The position numbers and the translations under genes are program-made. Below, one piece after another: positions 3,201 to 60,520 of a stretch of 64,000 nucleotides of DNA. The stretch's first letter is position 1. The number at the start of each line of letters is the position of its first letter. This stretch comes from Nautilus pompilius (Eukaryota; Mollusca; Cephalopoda; Nautilida; Nautilidae), in contig JACATO010000092.1 in the NCBI GenBank assembly GCA_018389105.1, positions 62,001-126,000 of the forward strand. The letters run 5' to 3'. A model generated the notes under the pieces. That model was not told the DNA's origin, ran no database searches, and saw nothing but the letters and a program-made list of their open reading frames with translations.

Positions 3201-5599
3201 ATCTTCTTTTTAAATCATCCTCTGTGGTTTCTTCTCATTGTCTAGAGATCAGTAATGTAAGAGTTATCTCCTGTACCTTTTCTCACTTCCGGGTAGTTCA
3301 ATCAAAGCAAGAGAGAGGGAGAATAATAATGAATTCACACTCTTAATGAAGAAAGATTTGCAGTAATTGCTTCATGCTTGAGGCCAACCATTATTTGGCA
3401 CCAAAGCAGAACTAATTGCAAGCGCAAGGTGGATCAAACAACTTAACATTCCAATGAAATCTGCAATACAAAGCATGGATGATGCAGTTGAAGAAAAGCA
3501 GCAAACAGATCGTCTGTTGATGCATCTTAGCAAGAATTTTCCAGACCCCTCCCCCCCACCGATGGCGCAGTCTTTCTCATGACTGGACGGAAAACTGGTG
3601 CTAATCTTTTTTCCCGGATTTGTCAGAAGTGGGGGACTTTATAATTATTTAGCTTTAATTAATCCATTGTTTTGATGAGAGGTCACTTTTCACTTGAGGG
3701 CAACTTAAAGACAAAACTGTTTTGCAAAGCCAGACGTGTTCAGGAGGTAGTTTTCCATAAAATTGATGCTAAAAGTACCCATTCGCTTCATTAGGTGTGA
3801 TGTCTGTCCCCTTACTGGTGACAGGCAGCCAAGGGAAACCAAGTAAAACACGGGGGTGTGTGTGTGTCTCAACAGCGTATTGTTGAATGCACTTTGCAAA
3901 CAGCAATTGCACTGATTGTGAAGTACATATAAAACTAAAATTAGTTCAAACATTACATTTTTTCAGGAATGCTGATATAATTAATAGTTAGTGTATAAGG
4001 AATATGCAATGAAACTTAAATTCATTAGTAAACTAATACTAAATTCCTATTTTCTTCAAAAAAATTCAATCACCTGTATGCTCTCATATTTTACGTATAT
4101 TTGTATGTTATGGATTCTTCTAACTGATTGTAGTCATCTTTTGTTAGATTCTTGTTTATGTAACACGCATATATTCTTTTTCTCAGCAGAGAAGCTGAAT
4201 AAAACTCTTTGGAAAAAAAAAATTTAACAAACAAACGATACACTTATATGCAGAACAGTAACAAGCAAGCATATTTTAAATAATATTTTAAGTTTATTTA
4301 CTGTGTTACCAGTAATGTTTACTTAGAAAATTCAGATGACGTATTGATCTTACTCCAAATAAATTTAAATATTTTAACTCTCTTCAGAAATATCAAATGT
4401 CCTCTTGCCTGGACTAAAAAATATTTTGATGTTAAAGTATTATCTTTATTATTGTATTGCATTTTTATTTTAATTTATAATGTAATTCTTACTCCACAAA
4501 AGCTTAGTTTTTGCAAATTCTATAAAACAAACTCTAGCCCTTTTTTTCCATTTATGGTATTAATATATATAGTTTGACCTGCCATCAAAATCAAAGAATT
4601 TAATTCTAATCTATATTTGCCTCTGTAGTCAAATATTTTGGGAAAATTCTTGGAAGGAAGAGGATGCCTCTTGGTTGGAGCACATTTACTTTTCTAATTT
4701 TGACATGGCTGACTGCCATCTGTCTACCCAGTCTTTGGGGCTCTTCACACATTTTCCAGATTTTCCTCAGTTACTTGTCTGCAGGAAATCTATGTAGCAT
4801 AATCTTTCCCCCATCTATTACTATACTGCTGTGCTTGTGGCATCCAAGAACAGAACAATATCTCTTCCCCATTGTAGGAAAATTTGAAAAGAATAACAAT
4901 GATGAATAATAGCTATGCTTGAGTGGTGAGTGATCCGGAAATAGAATAGAGGATTCTTTGTTATTTTTTTTCACTAGAGAATTCAGGGGAGATAAGTTAT
5001 GTAGAGAGGCTATAGATAAATTTCATTCCTATTAGTACTTTTTTATTTTGTAAAGATATTCAATAATAATAATAATAAAAATAATTTACTTGGTGACTGT
5101 AATCATTTAAAGGATCTTTCCAGAAAGTGACTTTTGCATATGTGTGTATTAGTTCCACTTTGTTTTGGGAAGCATCTAATTTTTATAAATATGAATATTT
5201 TCATTGAATCACCTGACCATTTAATCTCTATTTGTTAGAGCCTATCAACATCATGAAAATGTTTAAATAGTTATGTAATTATCTTTTGCTCTATTTATTT
5301 ATTTATTTATTTATTTATCTATCTATCTTCTGAAACTTCCCCTCAGTACTTTTTAACATTTGTGATAGTAACACATTGTTTTGCTGTTGTCTTCTTAAGG
5401 CTAATCAAAATTGTTTTGGCACTCCTCTTTCAGAGATTGCCAGTACCATCTTAAAAGTGTTCAGTAATATTTCTGCCTCAAGTTTGAAAAAAAAATTGGA
5501 GAGAATCGCTTATCAAGAGCTCTGATATAAATGAAAGTATTTACAGTATTTTGTTGTTGTGGTTTCTTCGTTAAACGTACATGTTTGAAAAAATTGTTC
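255..5599. other. AT-rich non-coding stretch
   Basis: I see no gene here. The interval is AT-rich with many A and T homopolymers, a short GAGA/GACA repeat near 2787-2812, AAT repeats near 5070-5090 and a TTTA/TATC tract at 5292-5328. Short reading frames in it have no recognisable motifs, and none is bounded by convincing splice sites. It is best read as intron or intergenic DNA. Confidence 0.6.
5292..5328. repeat. (TTTA)n / (TATC)n microsatellite
   Basis: Seven or so TTTA units run directly into three TATC units. Confidence 0.9.
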
Positions 5600-16453: not shown

Positions 16454-17721
16454 CAAGGTCTGTCGAAAAAGTATCCGACCTTAGGCTGGGAAAAAAAAAA
16501 TTACGTACTTGGTGGGGTTAAATTGCTAACCCCTTCGAAGTAGGCCCCTTGTGCCTCCACACACTTAGACCAGCGATCCTTCCACTGTTCGAAGCACACC
16601 TGGAATGCTTCTTCTGGAATGGCTCTCAGTTCTACCGTTGCATTCCGCATGATGTCCTCTCGGCTCTCAAAGCGGGAGCCTTTCAGTGGCATCTTCATTT
16701 TTGGGAACAACCAGAAGTCAGAAGGAGGAGCCATGTCTGGAGAGTAGGGAGCCTGGCGAATGAGCGAAATGCCTTTCTTTGCCAAGAAATCTTGGATCAG
16801 CTATGATGAATGAGCCGAGGCGTTGTCATGATGCAGCTGCCAGTTTTGCGAGGCCCACAGATCCGGTCTCTTGCACTGAACTGCATCACGAAGATGTCAG
16901 AGGACTTCCTGATAGTATTCCTTTGTAACTGTTTGTCCTTCTGGTGCATATTCGTGATGCACAATGCCTCGGTAGTCGAAGAAAACAGCATCACCTTGAT
17001 TTTTCTCTGGACCTGACGTGCTTTTTTGGGCCTTGGCGACGTTGGGTGCTTCCACTGTGATGACTGAGCTTTGGTTTCTGGGTCGTACCTGTACACCCAT
17101 GTATCATCTCCAGTTATCACGGTATTCTGGAACTCAGGATCCCTGTTGACAGTATCCAGCCTGCACAACCACAAGACGAAGTTGTTGTTGTTCCTGAGAA
17201 AGCAGCTTGGGCACAGCACAAGCCCAAATCCTCCTTTAAAATTGCATGTGCAGAATCTTTACTGATCCTAACCTCATCACCAATTTTCCGCACCGTCAAA
17301 TGACGATCCTCCATGATCAAGGTCCACACTTTATTGATAACAACTGCATTGCGGCTTGTTGATGGCCTCCTGGAATGCTGGTCACTCTCCACCGATGTGC
17401 GTCCATCTTTGAACCTGTTGTACCATTCTTTAATTTGGGTAACACCCATGGCATTGTCACCAAAAGCCTGTTGAATTTTGCGAATTGTTTCCACTTTGGT
17501 ATCTCCAAGCTTTTGGCAAAACTTGATGCAAGATCGTTGCTCCACATGTTCCGTCATCATGGGTGAAATGAAAATGTGACAAGTAAGTATTACAGCACCT
17601 CACACGATGGCTGCCTGACAGCAACTGACGCATGCGGCTCCACTATGCACACTTTTGCCTCCCTAACATCATTACTTCCCACAGGAAAAAATAAAGTCAG
17701 ATACTTTTTCGACAGACCTCG
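16454..17721 (-). mobile_element. Mariner-like element, 1268 bp, full-length but inactive
   Basis: The left end CAAGGTCTGTCGAAAAAGTA and the reverse complement of the right end, CGAGGTCTGTCGAAAAAGTA, are inverted repeats of about 26 bp with two mismatches. TA dinucleotides flank both ends (16452-16453, 17722-17723). The total length is typical of mariners (about 1.3 kb). The transposase lies on the minus strand and spans nearly the whole interior. The termini are well preserved, but the coding part is broken. Confidence 0.95.
16501..17560 (-). pseudogene. Mariner transposase pseudogene with frameshifts and a stop
   Basis: The gene starts near 17560 (MMTEHVEQRSCIKFCQKL), giving the N-terminal helix-turn-helix region with QIKEWYNRFKDGR and RRPSTSR, hallmarks of mariner DNA-binding domains. 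This frame fails at about 17190. The next frame carries ITGDDTWVYRYDPETK with the first catalytic Asp. Another shift near 16990 leads to FFDYRGIVHHEYAPEGQTV. A further frame holds the second Asp in LHHDNASAHSS, followed directly by a stop at about 16804. After it comes YSPDMAPPSDFWLFPKMK with the third Asp. Between the second and third Asp there are 35 positions including the stop, close to the D34D mariner spacing; the extra position is in APPSD. At least two frameshifts and one stop make it nonfunctional. Confidence 0.9.
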
Positions 17722-24200: not shown

Positions 24201-25284
24201 TTCATTTGCCCTCCCCACATAAACTTACCTAAGGTTATCTTAAGGTTGCCTTATCCTCACCAGATAGTGAATGAGTCAGCAGCATTGTATGAAAGGTTTC
24301 AGCCATTTGTGTTGCTTGCTAATTGTACACTGTTGCTCAGGTGTTTAGAATTCCATAGCTAACTCCTGTTACCATTACCAACGTAAGGCAAAGACAGGGA
24401 ATGTGGGAACAACCAATAGCCAAGCATGTCACAAAAGCCAAATGCGCCACAAAGCGAAATAATATGTAATTTTTAAAATTATTATTTGATTTTTAAATAA
24501 CGAATATTACTCTGATTTGGAACAAATAATGATTTTCACTTTGCTAATGAGACTATTCTTCATGGCAGACAAAACTGGAGATTATTTTTTTACATTATCT
24601 TATTAAGTATATAAATGTTTAACAACTTTTGTTACTCAAGTTAATTATTGCTACTAGTTTGACAAAATAACGATTGCAAGGGGCATTACATGCTTGCTTT
24701 CTTTCTGCCAGGTACGTAGGCATGGCTACTCACATTATTATCAAAAGACATGGCAAAAAACAAGCTCAGGGTGATGGCCTCTTAAATCTTTTGCTATTTA
24801 CAGAATAGATTTGTACAAAATTATTTGAAGGTCACTTGTTCTTAAATCCACAACATGTTGTAATTGTAACAATTTGCTAATAGTCATAAATTAGTTTTAG
24901 CATCAGTTGATTGATAGATAAATAAAAGCCTATAGCTATAGGAAATAATGAGAAAACATCATAACAAATGAAAATTTATTAATTTTTGCTCTCCCATAAC
25001 AAAACTAGTTAATTATTCTGTAATTTCAGCAGTTAGTCCATAGACTGAATCCATTGGTCTACATTTGAGATTGAATGAACTGGAAACGGAAGATTGACTT
25101 GATTTAATTGTTTTAACTAGCTCATACACTGCTCCTGATTCACACTGATGTGGAAAATTTTCAGATGTAATATTTACCACAGGTTTCTGAAAATCAAATA
25201 ACGATTGATACATCTTTAGTTGAACCTTTTCACACACACCATGCTGGCAGTCTACTTGCTTTTTTTGATGCCATCTGTGTTTCT

Positions 25285-40420: not shown

Positions 40421-40553
40421 AGGCCTCCATCGCAGAATTTAAGTTTCAATCAACAAGACGACACACAGTCTTCAAGGTCGGGAGACACACCTGTGCCAGC
40501 TAGTCAATCCAACACAAATTCTTCACAAAATATCGACAACAGCAGCGAAGTGG
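40421..40553 (+). CDS. Internal coding exon of an unidentified long-intron gene (Ser/Gln/Asn-rich segment)
   Basis: The exon is preceded by a T-rich tract and TTCTGCAG, and is followed by GTAAGTG, both strong splice signals. Its 133 bases read open in one frame from the first base: 44 codons beginning RPPSQNLSFNQQDD and ending SSQNIDNSSEV, plus one extra base, so it exits in phase 1. The peptide is rich in Ser, Gln, Asn, Asp and Thr and has no Cys or Trp, as expected for a disordered linker in a transcription factor or RNA-binding protein. Codon use and composition differ clearly from the AT-rich flanks. I cannot name the gene. N-terminal or linker regions of ELAV- or RBFOX-type RNA-binding proteins are possibilities that I could not test. 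The ORF extends 72 bases upstream into the T-rich intron, but that part is not coding-like. The partner exon downstream is probably the microexon at 59917. Confidence 0.8.
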
Positions 40554-41008
40554 GTAAGTGGCTGTTTTGTAGGCATGTTTGTTTGTTTGGTAACTTTTAT
40601 CTGGAATTAAACTGAATTTGGGGGGGGAGGGTGTTACAGCAAAATAAAGTTGAAAATATGACATTCCATCTACTCTAGCTTTTCTATTCAGTTAATAAAT
40701 GAGAAATAAACTTTTATTATAGTGTTTCTTTTAGAATTAGTTCTTTAGAAGTGCATACCTTTGACATGCGAGCAACAACAGATAAGTTTTATTTAAGTTA
40801 TTCAAGATGGCTAATCCATGGAGCCTAGGTGGTATAGATATATGTAAAAAATGCTTTAGTCAGGCTCTCCTTTTATATCAAGTGCATTCCTTTTGTAATT
40901 TTGCAGAACATTAATTTGCATTAATTTGAGTAGTTACTAGAAGCTACAAAACAAAAAAAAACAAAAACGTGTGTGTATCTTGGTGAACACTTGTCCTGAC
41001 TTTTGAGG

Positions 41009-41413
41009 TCTGAGGACGTTGTCTGAGTGGTGAGCTGCATGGTTTGGGGATATCATCCTTGGTGGTTAAGCAAGTTACCTGGATCCAGGTCTGAAGACGT
41101 CACCTGAGTGGTGAGCTGCATGGTATGGGGATATCGTCCTTGGCGGTTAAGCAAGTTACCTGGATCCAGGTCTGAAGACGTCACCTGAGTGGTGAGCTGC
41201 ATGGTATGGGGATATCGTCCTTGGCGGTTAAGCAAGTTAACTGGATCCAGGTCTGAAGACGTCACCTGAGTGGTGAGCTGCATGGTATGGGGATATCGTC
41301 CTTGGCGGTTAAGCAAGTTAACTGGATCCAGGTCTGAAGACGTCACCTGAGTGGTGAGCTGCATGGTATGGGGATATCGTCCTTGGCAGTTAAGCAAGTT
41401 AACTGGGTACAGT
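41009..41413. repeat. 81-bp minisatellite, five tandem units
   Basis: The word TCTGAAGACGTCACCTGAG recurs at 41090, 41171, 41252 and 41333, exactly 81 bases apart, and a diverged first unit begins at 41009. Units two to five are nearly identical. Because 81 is a multiple of three, the minus strand holds a 114-residue frame of 27-residue repeats (LNRQGRYPHTMQLTTQV and so on). That frame has no splice or start context and is probably incidental. Confidence 0.95.
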
Positions 41414-59055: not shown

Positions 59056-59117
<62 letters not shown>

Positions 59118-59120
59118 CTT
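59056..59120. repeat. (CT)n microsatellite
   Basis: About 57 bases of uninterrupted CT followed by CCTCTCTT. Confidence 0.97.
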
Positions 59121-59916
59121 TAAAAAAGAAATTTTACTTATCTGAGATATATTTTGTTGGTAGTTAATATATTTCTCTCCAAGCAAAATTATTGATCTAT
59201 AGCTCCTGAATGGCCTTTTAAACTCTGATTAGTGGGTTTTTTTGTTGTTTTTTAAAAAGATTCTTTTGAATTAATACACAAATTTTGTGATAGATGCTTA
59301 CAAATCTTGATCTGAGAAGTAAAATTTAAAAGAAAAAATATATACATGTATCCAAACTAACTGAAAATAATTCTGCCATCTAGTAATGGCTTTTTATAAT
59401 TTGTTAAGTGAAATAAAACACTTATTGTATACATGGATCTGTTATGATTCAAAGGTAAAACAGGTGGATTTCCAAACTATATTTTTCTGATTTCTTTTAT
59501 TCTACCCGTTTTCTCATTCCAGATAAACAAACCTACAGGTGTGCTTGCTTTTATTTTTGTTTATCTTAGGATTCAGTTTTATTGTCTTGAATGAAGATAA
59601 AGAAATGGAAGTTAATGTTTTTCATTAAAACTTATAATCACAGATTTTCCACAGCCAAATGGCAAAAGAGTCTACACAAGAAAATGAATTATCGCTTCTT
59701 GCAGTCTTTAAGTATATGTTAGGTGGAGGGAAGGAGAGGTTAAACAGATTTAGTGTTTCCACCGCCAGGTAGTGCTGGCTTTAAAGTGTCATTTTCTTAT
59801 TCTGTAGTTTAGTTTTCTTTTTACCCAGCTCTGTGTATGGCTGATTTATGTGTAACAAGCTGATTTAGGTTCCACTAACCCTCCCCTTCTCTCCCCACTC
59901 TCTCCCTTTACTCTAG

Positions 59917-59934
59917 CTCAGTCTATTAGCTTAG
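59917..59934 (+). CDS. Candidate 18-nt microexon
   Basis: A CT-rich tract of more than 30 bases ends in CTCTAG at 59916, then CTCAGTCTATTAGCTTAG, then a GTAAGTG donor at 59935. Of the three reading frames, two contain a stop inside the exon. The open one needs one base carried in from the previous exon, which is exactly what the exon at 40421-40553 supplies (its last G). The joined codons read A-Q-S-I-S-L, leaving one G over, so phase 1 is kept whether the microexon is used or skipped. The flanking tract has CTCTC and TTCTC words like those bound by PTB-type splicing repressors, and a long CT repeat lies 0.8 kb upstream. Neural microexons of 3-27 nt are known across animals. The chance that strong splice sites frame 18 random bases is not negligible, so RNA evidence is needed. 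Confidence 0.55.
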   Translation, partial: LSLLA

Positions 59935-59984
59935 GTAAGTGATGGGAACACAGGCACTTGTTCATTGTATGTACAGAAAGATAG

Positions 59985-60520
59985 TGTTCCATTGGCATTC
60001 AGGCTTGCGAACAGGCGGTATTCTCTTCTACCTAGGCCCATCATAATACCGCATTCACCATTAGGGGCAGATGGCGGACCTGGGCTATGACTTGGGTATC
60101 CGCTTATTCACACTGCACACAGCTTCCAACAAAACAGTTGCGAACATGCTGAATGGGACAGGAAAACTTGGCAAAATAAAATCATAAGTTGTTTAAACTG
60201 GCTACATTTTGAAGGAGAATTAATAACTGAGGGGTTGGACTTAACTGTGTGGCAAAATGACGCTAATAAGACTTTTGTGTGTGGCGTGAAGCTATTTCTA
60301 TACAGGTGTAGCAAATGGTAACGTGTTGTGAAAGGAAGCTATGAGGCGCTGCTGTTAAGATTTTCATAGCAGACCACTCGGCTAATGGGACCCTCTTCAA
60401 AGTAGACTCTCCACTTCACCTCTGGAAATAGCCCTGACACCTTTCTCTGCTAGGGAAAGGCTTGTAGTAATTAAACGTGCCAAGCTATTTATTCTTTTTG
60501 GGCCACACCAGGTAAGATTT
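59985..60520. promoter_or_regulatory. GC-richer island just downstream of the microexon
   Basis: Mixed-composition DNA without simple repeats: GAACAGGCGGTATTC near 60010, CAGATGGCGGACC near 60068 and GTAATTAAACGTGCC near 60467. Sequence next to alternative exons is often conserved. No coding frame of note. Confidence 0.3.

Follow-up and report, generated by a model that had tools for sequence, protein, structure and literature searches.

The window analysed here, a 64,000-nt stretch of Nautilus pompilius DNA, contains a pair of closely spaced candidate splice sites that enclose 18 bases, lying some 19 kb downstream of a likely coding exon. The features that bear on this locus, all on the plus strand, are as follows.

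40421..40553, plus strand: likely coding exon of 133 nt, whose reading frame starts at base 1 of the exon and whose end is in phase 1
59523-59538, plus strand: second microexon-sized pair, ATAAACAAACCTACAG, 16 nt, preceded at a distance of 33 nt by CTGAT and lying 380 bp upstream of 59917-59934
59875..59879, plus strand: CTAAC resembling a branch point, with the branch A (59878) 39 nt upstream of the candidate exon
59880..59916, plus strand: CT-rich tract with CTCTAG as its last bases, part of a 46-nt AG-free zone
59917..59934, plus strand: candidate 18-nt microexon, CTCAGTCTATTAGCTTAG, A-Q-S-I-S-L, phase 1 to phase 1
59935..59941, plus strand: 5' splice site GTAAGTG after TAG, donor score 6.3
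60454-60511, plus strand: 58-nt exon-like pair, whose donor, CAG/GTAAGA, is the strongest of the plus strand

At 18 nt, flanked by CTCTAG on the 5' side and GTAAGTG on the 3' side, the candidate falls within the size of a GT-AG microexon (no more than 30 nt between acceptor and donor). An earlier note on this DNA had given its coordinates, letters, AG and GT flanks and phase, all of which are exact to the base. Splicing the 18-mer onto exon 40421-40553, with its one-base carry, reproduces the six residues claimed (AQSISL) and leaves one base over, so that the phase is kept as stated; the phase fits this upstream exon and does not fit the downstream candidate at 60454-60511. The splice sites had been called strong, and by a home-made score only 35 of the 3811 plus-strand AGs, and 9 of the 3672 plus-strand GTs, are as high or higher, the sites themselves counted in each case. 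Both remaining frames do contain stops (LSLLA-stop with a carry of 0, GSVY-stop-L with a carry of 2), leaving open the single frame that fits the phase-1 end of the upstream exon; this argument weighs little, however, because the TAG before the donor already closes one frame.

The upstream exon is a credible coding exon. It is bounded by the acceptor TTCTGCAG and the donor GTAAGTG, ends in GAA GTG G, and is open in one of three frames, encoding a Ser/Gln/Asn-rich peptide (RPPSQNLSFNQQDDTQSSRSGDTPVPASQSNTNSSQNIDNSSEV) that is probably disordered. Its CpG observed/expected ratio is 0.74, versus 0.28 for the whole window, and, of 9124 plus-strand windows of equal length, 0.78% match it in containing five or more CpGs together with an open frame in one or more of the three registers. 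Hydrophobic residues are as scarce in only 3 of 9179 open 44-codon stretches (0.03%), counted on both strands with overlapping starts and without leaving out the exon. The exon's acceptor and donor reach only modest scores (2.0 and 4.9), and its peptide has no match in Pfam up to E 1, or by sequence in the PDB up to E 10.

Upstream of the candidate, the CTAAC motif and the CT-rich tract stand in register with the acceptor. The 46-nt stretch free of AG is in itself not rare, since 314 of 3804 plus-strand AGs are preceded by such zones of at least 40 nt. CTAAY placed 18-55 nt upstream within the AG-free zone occurs at just 1 of the 53 further acceptors whose score is no lower (34 plus, 19 minus), and the branch point for this reason constitutes independent support; the looser CTRAY is likewise placed at 8 of the 53. 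It was absent from the argument of the earlier note, and was sought only after the site had been seen. Predicted RNA folding is weaker than that of shuffled sequences at 59840-59990 (z +1.8) and ordinary at 59990-60190 (z -0.9).

Read as a functional unit, the 18 bases would form a short cassette exon within the long intron that follows 40421-40553, recognised by the U2-type spliceosome. CTAAC, with its branch A at 59878, would base-pair with U2, and U2AF would contact both the long CT tract and the AG that comes first after it (59915-59916). At the 5' site, U1 would base-pair with eight bases, AGGUAAGU. An mRNA that includes the exon would gain A-Q-S-I-S-L in the Ser/Gln/Asn-rich, probably disordered stretch and would leave the frame unchanged. 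In favour of use are the CTAAC, the 46-nt AG-free zone and the UCUC-rich tract in register, as well as a strand and phase shared with a credible coding exon. Animal in-frame U2-type cassette microexons of up to 30 nt resemble the candidate in length, in being a multiple of three, in their GT-AG borders and strong sites, and in lengthening a flexible stretch by a few residues; they differ in being seen in transcripts, where 59917-59934 is predicted from sequence.

The contending explanation is a decoy, or pseudo-exon, in which a chance CT-rich and partly microsatellite-like tract happens to meet a good donor in a long intron and is never used. The extent to which the two can be separated turns on how often so good a pair would arise by accident, and we approached this by ranking exon-like pairs throughout the window, using splice-site frequencies and branch-point weights for animals in general rather than ones trained on this species, so that the ranks and nulls alike are shaped by those weights. 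With the branch-point term included, no other pair of 3-300 nt on the two strands scores as well as 59917-59934 (17.7, no floors). Without it, four other plus-strand pairs and one minus-strand pair of 3-300 nt equal or beat it; none of these is microexon-sized, and among pairs of 3-51 nt it remains the best.

One null consisted of circular shifts of donors against acceptors, by which the clustering of each is kept. For pairs of 3-30 nt in which both sites are each as strong, the chance mean was 0.13 on the plus strand (probability of at least one, 0.12) and 0.06 on the minus strand, and for a two-score sum as high it was 0.63 (probability 0.47) and 0.24, respectively, in 400 shifts. Requiring of the same sum an acceptor of at least 6 and a donor of at least 5 reduced these means to 0.33 and 0.14, while the score with the branch-point term gave 0.084 on the plus strand (probability 0.08) and 0.013 on the minus strand in 1000 shifts. 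Per window, a microexon-sized pair as good is thus expected about 0.1 times with the branch-point term and 0.9 times without it. A Markov-1 null, a model that loses local CT-rich tracts, yielded 0.03 per strand for both sites and 0.11 for the sum (150 runs). Given this acceptor, an equally good donor would fall within 3-30 nt in about 0.4% of cases by chance, and fit to the frame multiplies chance by approximately 0.24, being the product of the one-third of lengths that qualify and the 72.6% of the window's 18-mers that are open there. The true chance is nevertheless greater than the smallest of these figures, because the pair was picked from the whole window.

Nor is there any clear general excess of exon-like pairs, as the counts above a threshold of 13 indicate for the plus strand: it carries two pairs of 3-30 nt where 1.0 would be expected, and 11 of 31-300 nt where the expectation is 10.3. 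The corresponding minus-strand counts are none against 0.5 and two against 5.1. Moreover, the likely true exon at 40421-40553 scores 8.0 versus 17.7 for the candidate; a high score is therefore neither needed nor sufficient, and cannot prove use. The pair at 59917-59934 is real and unusual, but chance could still account for it, given that it was singled out post hoc.

Several observations accord with the decoy. Its chance expectation on the plus strand for 3-30 nt runs from 0.08 with the branch-point term to 0.63 for the plain sum, and reaches 0.9 when, in 300 shifts with the branch-point term, lengths of 3-300 nt are admitted. CT/AG microsatellites are present in the window, one of them a (TC)32 at 59056-59119, and a near-equal 16-nt pair of frame-breaking length lies 380 bp upstream, at 59523-59538. 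Human introns, according to one study, hold about ten times as many decoys as there are real exons (PMC3098058), a precedent that we count for this reading. Set against it is the coincidence of a branch point, an AG-free zone, an open frame and a kept phase in one pair. If real microexons occur, as in mammals, at roughly one per several hundred kb of intron, and only a minority of them have such strong sites, then by a rough estimate the window should hold true exons and frame-fitting decoys of this quality in similar numbers, near 0.02 each. We therefore place the chance that 59917-59934 is a microexon used in any tissue slightly short of one half, about even with the decoy, to which we assign the same weight. 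The case also shows the reach of sequence-only work: the top-ranking exon-like pair in 64 kb may itself be a coincidence.

A further explanation would leave no exon at all. Recursive splice sites are described as AG and GT juxtaposed in a long intron (PMC6110457), and the junction TTAG/GTAAGT at 59934/59935 has this form, in an intron exceeding 19 kb. It ranks third among 88 plus-strand AGGT sites in 40554-64000 and has a good 5' half (4.6). Its 3' half, however, is poor (-2.6), and among AGGT sites of both strands it ranks only 14 of 420, so that a strong 3' motif is not combined with a strong 5' motif as in a recursive site. It also differs in that three AGs precede it (at 59915, 59920 and 59928), the first of which adjoins the CT tract. 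We rejected ratchet splicing at 59935, and consider it very improbable. By far the strongest recursive-splice-like site lies at 24692-24717 on the plus strand, upstream of exon 40421-40553: GCTTGCTTTCTTTCTGCCAG/GTACGT leads the 420 joined AG/GT sites of both strands (11.5; the next scores 6.9), and of 200 strands of 64 kb that were simulated, 3.5% reached a score so high.

As to the tissue in which a used exon might be included, the earlier note had proposed that the CT-rich tract mediates repression by a PTB-like factor, with inclusion that is tissue-specific and perhaps neural. The tract is indeed there, with one CUCUCU, one UUCUCU, four UCUC and no UCUU, sequences that we take to be PTB motifs; the neural part of the proposal is not supported, there being no TGC in the 100 nt upstream and a strong 3' site, contrary to the published signs of eMIC-dependent exons (PMC8797185). 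In that account, exons of this class have a 3' splice site that is weak and has UGC close by, a long AG-free zone, a UCUC-rich tract and a CUAAY branch point, and in fly they also have weak 5' sites and short introns (PMC8797185). The candidate shares three of these features with eMIC/SRRM4-dependent microexons, namely the CTAAC branch point at 39 nt, the 46-nt AG exclusion and the four UCUC. It departs from them in the absence of any TGC within 100 nt upstream of 59917, and in a 3' site whose home-made score is equalled or exceeded by only 35 of 3811 plus-strand AGs. The weak 5' sites and short introns of the fly exons are likewise not found at 59917-59934, where the flanking intron extends for at least 19 kb. 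In mouse, PMC7821500 places the strongest sites in clusters of included microexons and reports high site scores, together with the highest in-frame share, for non-neuronal clusters as well; on that account strong-site microexons are mostly included or non-neuronal. In fly, knock-down of the PTB orthologue gave no evidence of a role in eMIC-exon repression, unlike the situation in mammals (PMC8797185). Nothing indicates that the gene is neural. We regard the neural PTB model as possible, but not favoured: a strictly neural eMIC (Srrm234/SRRM4) microexon, repressed elsewhere by a PTB-like factor, is unlikely, and takes up only a small part of the probability accorded to use.

If the cassette exon is used, then, because both sites are strong and no UGC signal is present, broad or switch-like inclusion would be expected instead of a strictly neural eMIC programme, and binding of some factor to the CT tract might modulate it. 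The locus would in that event supply one more microexon in an animal gene. Having strong sites but no UGC motif, it could usefully be compared with the neural class.

When joined to exon 40421-40553, the other microexon-sized pair, the 16 nt of 59523-59538, has an open frame at the required offset and changes the phase from 1 to 2; the 18-mer read after it (with a carry of 2) meets a stop. It is conceivable, though very unlikely, that the two are alternative microexons in one long intron. Were this so, the 18-nt exon alone would keep the frame, the 16-nt exon alone would shift it, and both together would give an in-frame stop, such that the choice between them would switch among an inserted peptide, a changed frame and RNA decay. 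Beyond the candidate, the pair at 60454-60511 is open at offset 1 only and, after the 18-mer, reads GKGL followed by two stops, at its very start. Among the pairs listed by a heuristic search (up to 40 per strand, at least 15 codons, with minimum site scores), none downstream of 59934 is a convincing coding exon. At 60454-60517, on the plus strand, the donor end of the 58-nt pair forms the second-best joined AG/GT of the window, although roughly every second simulated strand would be expected to reach its score. A 470-bp patch at 60008-60477, just past the candidate, carries 12 CpGs in an otherwise CpG-poor window, and no within-window repeat of at least 60 nt covers 59917-59934.

Protein searches, which took in exon 40421-40553, two further peptides and partly overlapping sets of ten and seven, returned no match that would name a gene among the frames searched, a subset of the 202 frames of at least 60 aa plus shorter pieces. 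The sole match above cut-off among them was to HTH_48 (Mos1 transposase, mariner). It lies within 17120-17599 (E 6.5e-9) and belongs to a broken mariner transposon at 16501-17599 on the minus strand. The segment 16501-16800 of that strand, presumably the transposase part of the mariner, gave a Pfam CHCH match below cut-off. No RNA family was matched in Rfam at the gathering score, and no tRNAs were detected by ARAGORN under bacterial settings. At 4774-4872, also on the minus strand, a peptide beginning MGKRYCSVLGCHKHSS and continuing to LHRFPADK may be the start of a THAP-domain protein (E 0.065, below the Pfam cut-off), while the whole frame around it matched no family. Finally, a minisatellite of five 81-bp units with 97% matches occupies 41006-41406 on the plus strand, and is open throughout in one minus-strand frame.
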